Assembly (NCBI RefSeq): GCF_002082565.1
Contig: NZ_CP020562.1
Coordinates: forward strand, 310,001 to 374,000
Direction: 5' to 3'
DNA length: 64,000 nt
DNA from: Halomonas sp. GT
GTDB lineage: Bacteria > Pseudomonadota > Gammaproteobacteria > Pseudomonadales > Halomonadaceae
The translations under genes were made by a program, and so were the position numbers. The notes beneath the pieces were generated by a model that saw only the letters and a list, made by a program, of their open reading frames with translations, searched no databases and had not been told where the DNA came from. Positions within the stretch are counted from its first letter, which is position 1. Each line of letters opens with the position of its first letter. This document shows positions 50,515 through 64,000 of the stretch, piece by piece.

Positions 50515-50633
50515 AGCGTTGCAAGGACGTAGCGATTTGCGCGAAAATTGTACGTGAAGATAGTTGCATGAGACTGCAAATATGCGTGGTCTCACCCATT
50601 CAATTTTAGGCATATTGCTTACTGGAGAGACAG

Positions 50634-50903
50634 ATGGCATTAACCGCTGAGAAGAAGGCCGAGATCGTCAACGAATACGGCCGCGGCGATAACGATACCG
50701 GTTCCCCTGAAGTTCAGGTTGCACTGCTGAGCGCCAATATTAACGGCCTGCAGGACCACTTCAAAACCAACAAGCAGGATCACCACTCTCGTCGTGGTCT
50801 GATCCGCATGGTAAACCAGCGTCGTAAGCTGCTGGATTACTTAAAGCGTAAAGATTTTGAACGCTATCAGTCTCTGATTCAGCGTTTAGGTCTGCGTCGT
50901 TAA
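50634..50903 (+). CDS. rpsO: 30S ribosomal protein S15
   Basis: Ribosomal protein of 89 residues that binds the central domain of 16S rRNA. The text [19 protein letters not shown] and [24 protein letters not shown] is near-invariant. GGAGAG precedes the ATG. The 119-base gap from truB carries its promoter and may form the autoregulatory leader known for S15. A strong terminator separates it from pnp. Confidence 0.98.
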
Positions 50904-58711: not shown

Positions 58712-60097
58712 TTACTGCTCTGTTTTACGTGGTTTGCGTCGTTTTTTACGTCGACGGTCCCCCTGGCTTGCCGGATCACTTCCTACTTTTTGCAGAAGCC
58801 GAAGTTGCTCGTGCTCATCACCTTGCTGGAAGGCATTCCACCAATCGCCTAAGCCACGCGGTATTTCACCTGCTTGTTCGCGCAACAGCAGCAAATCGTA
58901 GGCGGCTCGGAAGCGTGGATGTTCGCGGGTTTGAAATGCCCGTTTGCCACGGCGTAGAGGAAGGCGCGCCTGTAGCTCCCAAATATCGCGCATGGGCATG
59001 CCAAAACGTTTGGGAATCGAAATATGCTGTAACTGACGAGTCACGACCTGTTGGGCGGCAGTTTGCAGCGCCGGAATTGCGGGCATGCCTTCTCTCTCAA
59101 GCTCAGCTTGACGGTGTGCCACTGGCGCCCACAAAAAAGCGGCTAGCAGAAAGGCTGGCGTAACTGGCCGACCTTCCGCAATACGTTTGTCGGTATTAGT
59201 GAGCGCTTGTTCAATCAGATCTTCGGCCCAAGCAGCATCCGCCATGGCTTCTTCCGCTTCGGGGAACAGCATGCCAAACAAGTTGTAATGGCTCAGTAAG
59301 CGAAAAGTAATTAAGCCATGCCCCGACATGAATAGCTTGAGTACTTCATCAAACAAACGGGCGGGAGGAATTTGCAGTAGCAGCGGTGCCAGATCGTACA
59401 TCGGCTCTTCAGTGGCTGGCTCAATGGTGAAATCAAGCTTGGCCGCAAAGCGCACCGCACGCAGCATGCGTACTGGGTCTTCCCGATAGCGGGTAACGGG
59501 GTCGCCAATCAGTCGCAGCGTTCGCGACTCAATATCACGCGCGCCATTAGCAAAATCATGAATCGTGAAGTCAGCGATATTGTAGTAAAGCGCATTCACG
59601 GTGAAGTCGCGGCGTAGGGCGTCTTCTTCGATGTTACCCCACACATTGTCTCGCAATAGTAGGCCATCGTCAGACTGCTGAGCGATATGATCGCCGTGCT
59701 CATCCTGAGGCTTGCCGCGGAACGTGGTGACTTCAATGACTTCACGGCCGAAGCGCACATGCACAATACGAAAGCGCCGACCAATCAGCCGTGAATTGCG
59801 AAACAGATCGCGCACCTGTTCCGGCGTTGCATTTGTGGCAACGTCGAAATCTTTCGGCATTTTGCCCAGCAATGCATCACGAATGCAGCCGCCGACCAGG
59901 TAGGCATCAAATCCAGCGCCATTTAGACGATAGAGCACCTTTAACGCGGCCTCGCTGATTTGCTGACGAGAAACAGGGTGCTCGGAGCGCGGAATAATAC
60001 GTGGACTGAGCGCATCAGCGGCGCTCTCTGGGGAATCGAGCAGGGATTTCAAGTGCTCTCCCGGGCTATGTAATAAACGGGTAAATCCTTTAAACAT
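58712..60097 (-). CDS. pcnB: Poly(A) polymerase I
   Basis: Nucleotidyltransferase of about 461 residues that adds 3' poly(A) tails that speed RNA decay. The head domain reads YLVGGCIRDALLGKMPKDFDVATNATPEQV with the metal-binding DFD; then come RIVHVRFGREVIEVTTFRG and RRDFTVNALYYN. The C-terminus is strongly basic (GDRRRKKRRKPRKTEQ), as in other PcnBs. ATG 60097 is chosen; the frame extends to a TTG at 60163 without improving the start. It sits directly downstream of the crcZ-like RNA, as in Pseudomonas. Confidence 0.95.
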   Translation of the reverse strand: MFKGFTRLLHSPGEHLKSLLDSPESAADALSPRIIPRSEHPVSRQQISEAALKVLYRLNGAGFDAYLVGGCIRDALLGKMPKDFDVATNATPEQVRDLFRNSRLIGRRFRIVHVRFGREVIEVTTFRGKPQDEHGDHIAQQSDDGLLLRDNVWGNIEEDALRRDFTVNALYYNIADFTIHDFANGARDIESRTLRLIGDPVTRYREDPVRMLRAVRFAAKLDFTIEPATEEPMYDLAPLLLQIPPARLFDEVLKLFMSGHGLITFRLLSHYNLFGMLFPEAEEAMADAAWAEDLIEQALTNTDKRIAEGRPVTPAFLLAAFLWAPVAHRQAELEREGMPAIPALQTAAQQVVTRQLQHISIPKRFGMPMRDIWELQARLPLRRGKRAFQTREHPRFRAAYDLLLLREQAGEIPRGLGDWWNAFQQGDEHEQLRLLQKVGSDPASQGDRRRKKRRKPRKTEQ

Positions 60098-60254
60098 GCG
60101 GCGATATCGACTCGCAGGGTATCGAAAACGGTATCGAGAAACGTAGCGAAAAAATAACCGCAAGGTTAGCGGTAAGTTGCTGAGTGTAGCCGACCCCTTA
60201 AGGCTTGCAAAGCATTCGAGCAGGGTTTGTAAAAGACAACCGCTCTAAACGCGG

Positions 60255-60280
60255 AAAGGGGAGGCTACAAGAGCCTCCCC
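60255..60280 (-). terminator. Terminator of the crcZ-like RNA
   Basis: On the minus strand GGGGAGGCT-CTTGT-AGCCTCCCC, a perfect nine-pair stem, followed by a short TTT. The T-tail is weak, so the exact 3' end is uncertain. Confidence 0.75.
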
Positions 60281-60717
60281 TATAAAGCAGACAATCAGCG
60301 TCCATGCTGCTGTTTTTCTTCATGATGGCACATCGCCCTGAATACGCACCGCAGTCGGTAGGCGTGAGAACCAGTCTGATTCCGACCGCCTCGTATTCAA
60401 AACAATAATCCAACCGCGAACTTTTTTCTCCCGGCTTGTTGTTATTGGCTCCGGGGTGTACACACATGCTGCTGTTATTTTTGTTAGCAAGCAGATTCTT
60501 TGTGTACGTCGCGTCCTTTTTGGGCACTTGCTGACTGTTGTTATTGTTCGCTGCGCTTATTCTGCTTAGCGCTAGCAAGTCGTGAGACTCAAGCCTGTTG
60601 TTCTTGTTAGTACTATGATCTCTGCCTGGCCCTGTTATTTTTGTTTTGGCTCAGGTTGGGGCGGTGTCATGTTGTTTTTGTTGGCGACGACCGCGCTGCC
60701 CATTTTGTTCTTCTTGC
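60255..60717 (-). ncRNA. crcZ: CrcZ-like small RNA with repeated CA motifs
   Basis: Predicted ~463-nt RNA between cbrB and pcnB, the place of CrcZ in Pseudomonas. On the minus strand it carries at least eight A-rich CA motifs fitting AAnAAnAA: 60715-60705, 60682-60672, 60647-60635, 60608-60598, 60548-60538, 60485-60475, 60446-60436 and 60320-60313. Several read AACAAnAACAA. In Pseudomonas such motifs bind Hfq with Crc and titrate them off target mRNAs, relieving carbon catabolite repression. A sigma54 promoter fixes the 5' end near 60717, so the RNA starts with GCAAGAAGAACAA. A branched hairpin closes with GAATACG/CGTATTC (60398-60392 with 60346-60340). A terminator ends it. Open frames over this region are low-complexity artefacts of the repeats. 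Confidence 0.86.
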
Positions 60718-60727
60718 CCAGTAATAT

Positions 60728-60743
60728 TGCACTTGCTGTGCCA
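60728..60743 (-). promoter_or_regulatory. Sigma54 (RpoN) promoter of the crcZ-like RNA
   Basis: On the minus strand TGGCACAGCAAGTGCA matches the -24/-12 consensus TGGCAC-N5-TTGCA at all but one position, with GG and GC exactly ten bases apart. It predicts a start near 60717, right at the first CA motif. The response regulator encoded upstream (CbrB) is a sigma54 activator. Confidence 0.85.
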
Positions 60744-60817
60744 CCCATTCTTTATTCTTTTATTTTCATAGGCTTGGGGTTTGTTGACTATGCCAGGGAA
60801 CTAATCGCAACCTATAG

Positions 60818-60868
60818 TGTTACCCGTTTTTAATGGATTTTGGGTGTGTGTTGTGTGGGAAGGTAACA
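60818..60868 (-). promoter_or_regulatory. Candidate CbrB enhancer (TGTTAC ... GTAACA)
   Basis: TGTTAC at 60818-60823 and its inverse GTAACA at 60863-60868 lie about 100-150 bases upstream of the predicted crcZ start, the usual distance for a sigma54 enhancer. From memory, CbrB sites in Pseudomonas are palindromes with these halves but closer together, so the 39-base spacing here is unusual. Confidence 0.5.
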
Positions 60869-60972: not shown

Positions 60973-62358
60973 CTAATTGGGGCGGCGTGCGGTTTTTTTA
61001 CGTGGAATGCCTAAGCGCTGGCGCCGTTCCCATAAATTTTTACGGCTAATCCCCAGTTTTTGGGCTAACTCGGTTTCGCTCATTTGATCTTGGTGTTCCA
61101 GCACAAAATGCTGAAAATAATCCTCAAGGGAAAGATCGTCGTCATCCCCATTAGGCGTTGAAGATTCATTTGCTAATGCGGAGCCGTTACCTGCAGAAGA
61201 GTGAGGTCGGTTGGTAACAGGGCCCAGGCCTAAGTCGTCAGGGTGAATCAAATGCCCTTCGGCGAGAATCACACCTCTCTCCAGCGCATTTTCAAGCTCT
61301 CGTACATTACCTGGCCAGGGGTAGTCGCGTAGATCCTGGCGGGAGGCTCGTGACAAACGAAGCCCTTGTCGGTCATGACGTTTGCACGCTTTATCTAGCA
61401 GGATATCGGCTATCTTCAATACATCCTCTTCACGGTCGCGCAGCGGTGGTAGTTCGATCTGCATAACGTTGAGGCGATAGTAAAGATCTAGTCGAAATTC
61501 CCCGCTTTTTGACAGAGCACGCAAGTCCCTATGGGTGGCGGCGATAAGGCGCACGTCCACATGACGTGTTTCGACGGAGCCTATTTTGCGGATTTCACCT
61601 TCCTGGAGTACGCGTAACAGTCGCGCCTGGGCATCCAGTGGCAATTCGCCAATTTCATCCAGAAATAGTGTGCCTCCGTCGGCGGCTTCGACCAACCCCG
61701 TTCGAGCAGCGCTAGCGCCGGTAAACGCCCCTTTCTCATGCCCAAAAAGTTCTGACTCAATCAGCGTCTCAGGTATTGCCGCGCAGTTCACACAAATCAG
61801 TGGTGCTTTAGCACGCTTGCTTTGCTGGTGAATGGCTCGAGCGACGAGCTCTTTACCTGTACCGGATTCTCCTTGAATCAGCACGGTAACGTCTGCCGGG
61901 GCTGTTTTGCGAATGCGCGTGTAAACCTGCTGCATCGCCGTGCAATTGCCGATCATCGTTTGACGCCCACCTCCTTCATCAGTGATATCCGGAGGCGTGC
62001 CTTGCTGCATCGACTGCTTATGCAGGATGCGCTCGACGGTTTCTAAAAGCTCGGTATGATCAAATGGTTTAGCAACATAGTCCACAGCCCCTTGCTTAAG
62101 TGCATCGACTGCCGAGCGCATGCTGGCATAGCTGGTCATAATTAGCACTGGCGAGGGTGCTGCGGCCTCAATTAAGGCGGTGCCAGGATCACCTGGCAGA
62201 CGCAGATCACTAATCACTAGATCAAATTCGCTAGGCGCCAGCTCTCGTGCTTCTTCTACGCTGCCCGCTTCGCTGACGGTGTAGCTGTGACGTTCGAGTA
62301 AACGCTTTAAAGCGCTGCGAATAATCGCTTCATCTTCAACAATCAGTATCCTGGGCAT
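60973..62358 (-). CDS. cbrB: Sigma54-dependent response regulator CbrB
   Basis: NtrC-family activator of 461 residues. The receiver domain starts [19 protein letters not shown]; the phosphoacceptor is D51 in VISDLRLPG and the switch Lys is K97. The AAA+ domain has Walker A GESGTGKE (about 163-170), the sigma54-contacting GAFTGA loop (about 210-215) and [20 protein letters not shown] Fis-type helix-turn-helix ends it ([21 protein letters not shown]). ATG 62358 is the family start and overlaps cbrA by 23 bases. CbrB activates crcZ and catabolic genes in Pseudomonas; the matching sigma54 promoter lies just downstream. Confidence 0.94.
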
Positions 62359-64000
62359 GAGGTAGGTGATCATCCTGTTGGTAAAGCGGTAGCCAAAGCG
62401 TAATGGCAGTGCCGCGAGGCTTTCCTGGAGGTGGTGACGCAACCTCTATTTTGCCTTGGTGCTCATTGATAATTTGGTAGGCCAACGAGAGCCCAAGCCC
62501 TGTTCCTTGGCCCGCAGGCTTGGTCGTGGTGAACGGCTCGAAAAGGCGATGCTTCACACTTGGGTCAATGCCGTGGCCATCATCGATGACCCGCCACCAA
62601 GCATGGCTTGCCTGTTTGCCTGCTTCAATATGAACCGTGCCCTGAGCATCGCAGGCATCTTTGGCATTGCTCAGTAAGTTGACCATGACCTGGGTTAATC
62701 GCTGAGCATCGCCACGCACCACGATGTCATCCGGACAGCCATTGGTAAAGCTTACATCCTCCCCCGAGCGCGCTAAATGGATCAAGTGTAGCGCGTCTTC
62801 GCTAATGGTAGAGAGCGAGGCGGGGGATGCCGGCAGTGGCAAGGTCTGTCGGCCACCGTGGGCAAAACCGACCAGCGAGTTAACAATCTTGGTGACTCGT
62901 TGGGTTAACTGTTGTATTTGGTCTGCGGTTTCCAGTAGCGCGGGGTCATCGGTATCGTAGCGCAAGTTTTGAGCCAGTGACGAAATGCCCGTGATGGGAT
63001 TGCCTATTTCGTGTGCCACGCCCGCCGCAAGTTGACCTATGGATGCCAAACGCGCTGCGTGGACAAGTTCCTCTTCTAGCCACTTCATTTCAGTATGGTC
63101 TTCTACCAAAATCACGCTGCCGCCACGGCTGTCGTGCCCGCTTAACACCGCTTTATGAAGGGTGAGGAAGTAATCCTTGTCATGTAATGATACTGCTTGT
63201 TTATACAACGGCGTATGGCTCGCGTTGAGTACGCTACCTAGTAAATTAGGCCAGGGTGGGGGCAGACTATCTCGGCGTGAGCCAATTACGCTATCGCCGC
63301 TAATCCCAGAGAGTAATGAAAGCGCCTCATTCCACATTAACAGCTCATCATCGTCGCCCAGCACGCATAAGCCGACGGGCAAGTAGGCTAGCGTTTGCCT
63401 ATGATGACGGCGTAAGCCATCCAGCTCGCGAGCCAACCCAGTGAGCCTAGAGCGGTAAGCTTCAAGGCGGCTTTCAACAAAATGAATATCGTCAGTGACC
63501 GGTGCATCGTCGTGGCGGTAGGGCAGGTAACGATCAACAATATCTCGTGCGACGGAAGGTCCCATTAAACCAGATAAATTAGCCTGGATTCGGTCGCGCA
63601 GGCGGCGCAGTGCATAGGGACGGCGCTCCTGAGGTGTCAGGTTTAGCGCTGTTAGTGCGCGGTCAACTTCACGGCTGGCCGCTTCATCTCCCAATGCTTG
63701 GGCAAGGTAAGTGGGGAAGTCTCCCGCCGTAGCTGCTTCCAGTGGTAGGCGTTTTGAGCGAATGACTGCATCTACGGAGCACGCTTCAGCTGCAGAGCGT
63801 TCGCCTTCTGAAATGCGGGTAAATAGCGACACAATGATTAGCAGTAAAATATTAACGGCTAAAGAAACAAGGGTAACGTTATACCAGATGGGCGCATCCG
63901 CAGACATCAGAGGGGTGAGGGGCAGCGAGAGCATGGGTAGCTCGAACAAAAGTGGCAACCATAAACCCCACAGCCAAATGATGATGCCGCTCATAAGCCC
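62336..64000 (-). CDS. cbrA: Sensor histidine kinase CbrA, N-terminal part beyond the window
   Basis: C-terminal 554 residues of a long sensor kinase; the frame is open at the window edge and the ATG at 63994 is internal. The visible order is the last membrane helices of an SLC5 transporter-like domain ([19 protein letters not shown]), an STAC-type linker with [13 protein letters not shown], a PAS-like domain ([21 protein letters not shown]), the H-box [20 protein letters not shown] and the ATPase domain with [17 protein letters not shown] and [10 protein letters not shown]. CbrA in Pseudomonas has this Na+/solute symporter-kinase fusion, phosphorylates CbrB and responds to carbon/nitrogen balance. 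Transmembrane transport by this protein cannot be judged here. Confidence 0.92.

Follow-up and report, generated by a model that had tools for sequence, protein, structure and literature searches.

The window analysed here, a stretch of 64,000 nucleotides covering bases 310001–374000 of a 4.16-Mb genome in one contig, carries on its minus strand, in this order, a dksA-like gene, a gluQ-like gene (both assigned by eye), cbrA, cbrB, the RNA described below and pcnB. The PcnB protein shows 100% identity to its Vreelandella alkaliphila counterpart and 97–99% to the next five named records, which, judged from this protein, places the host in Vreelandella, family Halomonadaceae. Between the end of cbrB at 60973 and the likely pcnB ATG at 60097 lies a gap of 875 nt, close to the ~870 bases given in the original prediction for this DNA, and the RNA that we propose for this gap would sit immediately 3′ of cbrAB, the position expected of CrcZ. 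The features of the locus, all on the minus strand, are as follows.

62336–64000, minus strand: 3′ part of cbrA, histidine kinase (HisKA, HATPase_c); the 981-aa gene continues past the window
60973–62442, minus strand: cbrB, response regulator and sigma54 activator (Response_reg, Sigma54_activat)
60863–60868, minus strand: TGTTAC, predicted CbrB half-site F, 125 nt ahead of the sigma54 site (−125); exact, conserved in relatives
60818–60823, minus strand: GTAACA, predicted CbrB half-site R in the R2 position, 80 nt ahead of the sigma54 site (−80); exact, conserved in relatives
60728–60743, minus strand: predicted sigma54 promoter, TGGCACAGCAAGTGCA, a good sequence match
60255–60717, minus strand: predicted CrcZ-type RNA, its 5′ end placed by the promoter and its 3′ end by the hairpin
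60705–60715, minus strand: AAnAAnAA cluster 1, at the predicted 5′ end
60672–60682, minus strand: AAnAAnAA cluster 2
60635–60645, minus strand: AAnAAnAA cluster 3
60598–60608, minus strand: AAnAAnAA cluster 4
60538–60548, minus strand: AAnAAnAA cluster 5
60475–60485, minus strand: AAnAAnAA cluster 6
60436–60446, minus strand: AAnAAnAA cluster 7
60313–60320, minus strand: AAnAAnAA cluster 8, on the 3′ margin of the conserved domain
60291–60424, minus strand: Halomonadaceae-specific conserved 3′ structured domain, ~134 nt
60257–60281, minus strand: terminator-like hairpin with a weak U tract, AGGGGAGGCTCTTGTAGCCTCCCCT
58712–60097, minus strand: pcnB, poly(A) polymerase I (PolyA_pol domains); likely ATG at 60097, start read from the sequence

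The gap is rich in the A-rich motif AAnAAnAA. Eight clusters follow the promoter (60715 to 60313), just as the original prediction had described for the minus strand, and a ninth (60752–60759) lies upstream of it. The nine clusters in the 809-nt stretch that was scanned compare with a mean of 1.38 in dinucleotide shuffles, none of 300 of which reached nine; the opposite strand of the same stretch has one. The longer form AACAAnAACAA is present three times in the array, so that the ‘several’ copies first claimed are fairly described. About five or more A-rich Hfq/Crc motifs are expected of a CrcZ, and eight are predicted here; counted alike, ten Pseudomonadaceae-type CrcZ loci carry 5–6 clusters after the promoter, which agrees with the claim of a higher number here than in Pseudomonas. 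Relatives show the eight-cluster array with similar spacing, and across 40 Halomonadaceae RNAs (a non-redundant set drawn from 77 at a 90% similarity cut) the count ranges from 5 to 9 and is mostly 8. The excess over shuffles recurs in all 55 same-genus loci, which come from 61 genomes (the six without a fetched cbrB stretch being G016, G018, G032, G047, G049 and G054): in 54 loci 0 of 300 shuffles reached the observed number, and in L013, clipped by a contig end, p = 0.003. L071, with a 100-base placeholder, and L064, at a contig end, have no motif-excess score.

A protein-coding gene would offer another account of the gap, the candidate being a 126-aa frame at 60198–60578. Two of 39 relatives have it open throughout the aligned RNA; in the remaining 37 Halomonadaceae RNAs, however, a stop interrupts it after 1 to 95 codons, and its start codon is kept in just 21 of the 39. 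Because it is broken in nearly all relatives and has no Pfam match, we rejected the coding reading as having almost no chance of being right, and the original view that the gap holds no credible gene stands. Loss of the motifs alongside a conserved frame had been named beforehand as an outcome that would speak against an RNA; the relatives show the opposite, with the motifs kept and the long frame not.

The array is preceded by promoter elements. The sigma54 promoter claimed for the 5′ side lies at 60743–60728, and counting 12 nt from the GC of this site puts +1 at ~60717, which coincides with the end point originally proposed and falls two bases ahead of motif 1. The pattern ‘sigma54 site, 8–20 nt, AAnAAnAA’ matches one place in the genome (twice, overlapping), and controls gave 0 matches. 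Further upstream are the half-sites TGTTAC and GTAACA, at which CbrB acts in P. putida (PMC6296734, excerpts). Ten Pseudomonadaceae-type CrcZ loci have half-site F at −122 to −125; nine of them have R1 at −102 to −104 together with a one-mismatch R2 at −80 to −82, and the tenth carries an exact R, found at −88. The predicted F and R2 sites of the window stand at these Pseudomonas distances, and the middle half-site R1 was not found in the window, where the best fit has 3 mismatches. Across 150 sigma54-plus-motif units from 147 loci, a set that includes the window itself and near-duplicates (some species are represented twice), TGTTAC occurs in 144, GTAACA in 146 and both within 260 bases in 141, compared with 0.2% of shuffles, which preserve base composition only. 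Among the 22 units from other families (19 loci), 14 have both half-sites and each has at least one. The half-site evidence is independent of the A-rich motifs, and the original prediction had overlooked both these sites and the conserved 3′ domain (60424–60291).

At the other end, the GC-rich 3′ hairpin that had been claimed is present at 60281–60257, though its U tract is weak. The best-scoring hairpin is similar in each of 73 named relatives scanned, and its stem changes are compensated between genera, Billgrantia having A-T where Vreelandella has G-C (by eye). These observations bear on whether the array might belong to a long pcnB 5′ leader or a cbrB 3′ UTR, in which the A-rich motifs would regulate pcnB. 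The gene order is compatible with such a transcript: the cbrB orthologue is followed by pcnB in the same orientation in 54 of 55 loci of the genus and in 25 of 34 loci from other families. However, the hairpin with its compensated stem ends the array well ahead of pcnB, the array has its own sigma54 and CbrB sites, and in one genome pcnB has moved away while the array stays with cbrB, which supports a CrcZ-type RNA and speaks against a pcnB leader. We regard the leader or UTR reading as very improbable.

The whole RNA is predicted to fold better than 100 of 100 shuffles (z −4.1). Its motif adenines are unpaired at 0.93 compared with 0.60 for other adenines, and the motif value is the higher one in 40 of 40 RNAs, a difference to be read with the general tendency of A-rich stretches toward the unpaired state. 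Much of the conservation resides in the 3′ domain, for which two alignments were made. Alignment A1 (34 rows) consists of the window and 33 of 39 relatives; since its rows were required to have exact anchor words, its invariance (19 of 23 pairs) is partly built in, and we therefore use the counts from alignment A2, which contains all 81 matches without the anchor-word filter but is fitted to the domain model. In the 75 distinct Halomonadaceae sequences of A2, the long helix has 23 pairs, of which 16 are invariant, and its four U-G wobbles are kept in 72, 75, 73 and 72 sequences, as if sequence and pairing were both under selection. The upper helix has both-side changes in four of its eight pairs, and 36 of 40 non-redundant RNAs carry the anchor 20-mer of the domain helix without a change. 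The structure exceeds that of shuffled controls (0–1 of 500 reach each measure) and of slid controls.

The domain model was built from A1, so that 34 of the matches underlying A2 and the named-locus count below are by construction. Searched across the order with filters under which weak matches are lost, it found 12 of 12 sampled Halomonadaceae genomes, each with a single match, and none of the 274 others, the absence of Halomonadaceae among these 274 being read from the kinship order of the list. A chosen-word search did not recognize the domain in 34 other-family loci, and it matched no Rfam family of its own. Near-invariance of this kind, in a single copy per genome that is limited to the family in this sample, might point to an sRNA that pairs with other RNAs with the help of Hfq and is not a pure sponge, with the motifs recruiting Hfq and the 3′ domain acting on a partner RNA or protein. 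Yet the conserved strands of the domain pair with each other, and promoter, motif number and position fit the known sponge; we consider a base-pairing sRNA unlikely.

The named Halomonadaceae sample, the best 80 of 152 loci, spans Vreelandella, Halomonas, Billgrantia, Modicisalibacter, Litchfieldella, Aidingimonas, Halovibrio and Salinicola. The strict sigma54-plus-motif unit is present in all 55 same-genus loci examined and in 73 of these best 80, the exceptions being L101 and L109 (contig ends), L105, L153 and L172 (altered promoters), L141 (degenerate first motif) and L133 (pcnB in another context). The 3′ domain is found in 79 of the best 80 loci, 33 of which are in the model. The eightieth genome, that of H. 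dongshanensis, has the domain elsewhere, behind cbrB, along with the motif array, a sigma54 site and both CbrB half-sites, and its pcnB lies in another context. Outside the family, one genome from each of 36 families yielded 34 loci, 33 of them with at least 200 nt after cbrB; G078 and G084, whose best CbrB match is weak, have no fetched cbrB stretch. The strict unit follows cbrB in 19 of the 34 loci (22 by a looser rule), and of the other 15 some carry motifs with no recognized site and others have no array. The CrcZ-type array foreseen for Halomonadaceae is present, but it is no oddity of this family, given its recurrence in others.

Some other-family loci are arranged differently. In L038 (G096), L041 (G065), L046 (G071) and L059 (G089), one cbrB–pcnB gap holds two sigma54 sites, each with an A-rich array, and these appear to be tandem copies of the RNA gene; at the second site of L041 the motifs begin beyond the strict-rule distance or nearly so. 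L042 (G067) has neither a unit nor pcnB behind cbrB and gives an Rfam CrcZ match on another contig, so the RNA seems to be located elsewhere in that genome.

The protein partners of a CrcZ circuit are encoded in the same genome as the window. CbrA residues 1–590 match residues 3–596 of 606 of PDB chain 10ed_A, ‘histidine kinase’ (3.3e-179), which is probably a CbrA sensor structure. A CbrA is expected to join an SLC5 transporter-like sensor to a histidine kinase; Pfam finds the kinase domains, whereas a transporter domain did not appear with E values as high as 10. The genome has a single Hfq match, which aligns at 6e-40 with the Hfq chain of PDB 1u1s, a chain that we take to be P. aeruginosa Hfq. 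The hfq gene of the genome (L002, 1459–1704, minus strand) encodes, by alignment, a Phe in place of Tyr25, a residue of the distal RNA-binding face. An Hfq Y25D mutant is defective in CrcZ binding (PMC4063720, excerpts). As judged from the alignment, Y25F is a conservative change, yet one at a residue relevant to CrcZ binding, and it counts against the CrcZ reading.

A crc gene elsewhere in the genome, to which the original prediction had looked for a check, was found between rph-like and pyrE-like genes (by eye). Its 252-aa product is one of four Exo_endo_phos proteins in the genome and matches the PDB entry ‘Catabolite repression control protein’ at 4.5e-74. Alignment with the genome’s own XthA indicates that five of six ExoIII catalytic residues are replaced (E34N, D151T, N153H, D258E and H259F, with D229 kept; positions presumably those of E. 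coli numbering), and on this alignment Crc is an ExoIII-like, nuclease-dead protein. Crc in Acinetobacter is treated in PMC8312277 (excerpts). Two other-family genomes, G081 (L069/L181) and G088 (L050/L188), have the array, sigma54 and CbrB sites together with a sole Crc-family match that keeps the six ExoIII residues examined, and in these a CrcZ-like RNA perhaps acts without a dead Crc. G095 (L047) and G077 (L061) have no AAnAAnAA cluster behind cbrB and a sole Crc-family match that is catalytically intact; array and dead Crc may both have been lost or never present there.

Membership in the Rfam CrcZ family (RF01675), for which a search had been proposed, was not borne out: the window region scores 10.9–12 bits against a gathering score of 95, and the own-genome search gave no match. 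With the gathering score and with E up to 5, Rfam returned for this region just the weak CrcZ matches and one chance match; elsewhere in the window, an S15 leader at 50566–50690 scores 42.1, barely above its gathering score of 39.5. Across the order, under stricter filters that lose weak matches, the CrcZ model gave hits with E ≤ 0.001 in 59 of 293 genomes, of which 14 exceed the gathering score (11 in family f21, 3 in f2). Family f21, by inference the Pseudomonadaceae, served as positive control, and G080, one of the 19 other-family loci with the strict unit, belongs to it, with the order cbrB, array, pcnB. In further families, represented by G094, G079 and G090, the coordinates place weak matches immediately after cbrB, and one of 12 genomes of the window’s own family matched, at 8.4e-4. 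Because the matches grade from Pseudomonadaceae-type loci into other families, the Pseudomonas and Halomonas RNAs look like the ends of one divergent family, although homology of the RNA in the window goes beyond the sequence evidence alone. Its assignment to the CrcZ type is supported by anatomy and circuit.

PAO1 CrcZ has 407 nt and six A-rich stretches (PMC4063720, excerpts). Like CrcZ of Pseudomonas and Azotobacter (with CrcY and CrcX), the RNA of the window lies downstream of cbrAB with a sigma54 promoter and a GC-rich end hairpin, has CbrB sites F and R2 at equal distances (−125 and −80 here), begins with an A-rich motif at +1 that is repeated along the RNA, and shares its genome with crc and hfq. 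Unlike CrcZ, it has eight motifs rather than 5–6, lacks R1, shows little sequence similarity, below the Rfam cut-off, and carries the 3′ domain that was not found in Pseudomonadaceae-type genomes; by the pattern used, its genome holds no second copy of the sigma54-plus-array unit that would correspond to CrcY or CrcX. Sponge RNAs of the RsmY/RsmZ type, whose repeated GGA motifs bind RsmA, similarly titrate a global post-transcriptional regulator through a repeated protein-binding motif, but they address RsmA via GGA, whereas the CrcZ type addresses Hfq via AAN. In A. baumannii, sRNA99 is an Hfq-bound RNA with A-rich AAN motifs like those of the Halomonadaceae RNA, and its authors compare it with CrcZ; it has three potential motifs, and its Hfq association is experimental, in contrast to the sequence prediction made here (PMC12802169, excerpts). 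According to the excerpted text of a 2022 review, the cbrA–cbrB–crcZ arrangement is unique to Pseudomonadaceae and described only in Pseudomonas and Azotobacter (PMC8871633), and cbrAB transcripts have been seen in a marine community (PMC5073097, excerpts). Titles and abstract openings, from a search to which most subscription journals and bioRxiv were external, contained no account of this RNA in Halomonadaceae.

Candidate targets were sought as strong CA motifs just before an ATG, and the genome gave 7 matches compared with 6 for a reversed and 8 for a scrambled pattern, that is, no enrichment. One of the seven is the RNA itself, four have no clear gene start, and two precede, by eye, a sodium:solute symporter-like gene (L224) and a GcvT-like gene (L220). 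The ribosome-binding region of the symporter-like gene, at about position 1520, reads ACAACAACAAGAGG; the strict motif is kept in 2 of 21 orthologues, and relatives have a near variant.

Taken together, we read 60255–60717, with a probability of roughly 0.9, as a CrcZ-type RNA that sequesters Hfq and Crc and as a sponge relieves catabolite repression. Weighing against this reading are the low Rfam score, the missing R1, the weak U tract, the target search with its poorly kept symporter motif, the Phe in Hfq and the 15 other-family loci without the strict unit. When CbrA–CbrB is active, CbrB would bind the upstream TGTTAC/GTAACA sites and drive sigma54 transcription from ~60717. The resulting ~460-nt RNA would expose eight A-rich motifs, mostly unpaired, that would occupy the distal face of Hfq, together with Crc; Hfq would be drawn off catabolic mRNAs and catabolite repression lifted. 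The structured 3′ domain, Halomonadaceae-specific in our sample, is likely to stabilize the RNA or to bind a further partner. More tentatively, the RNA could be a two-part regulator in which a CrcZ-like Hfq sponge is joined to a 3′ domain peculiar to the lineage and recognized by a partner, either protein or RNA, with CbrAB–CrcZ ancestral to the order and, in some lineages, possibly operating without a nuclease-dead Crc; we hold this wider proposal to be possible rather than probable.

The whole cbrA–cbrB–crcZ circuit is visible in Halomonadaceae, and the promoter-plus-array unit in several other families of the order, which makes the origin of the switch testable. The near-invariant 3′ domain is an RNA element without an Rfam match of its own. 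Vreelandella and Halomonas are used in bioplastics production, and our reading predicts that catabolite repression in these genera would be centred on Hfq.
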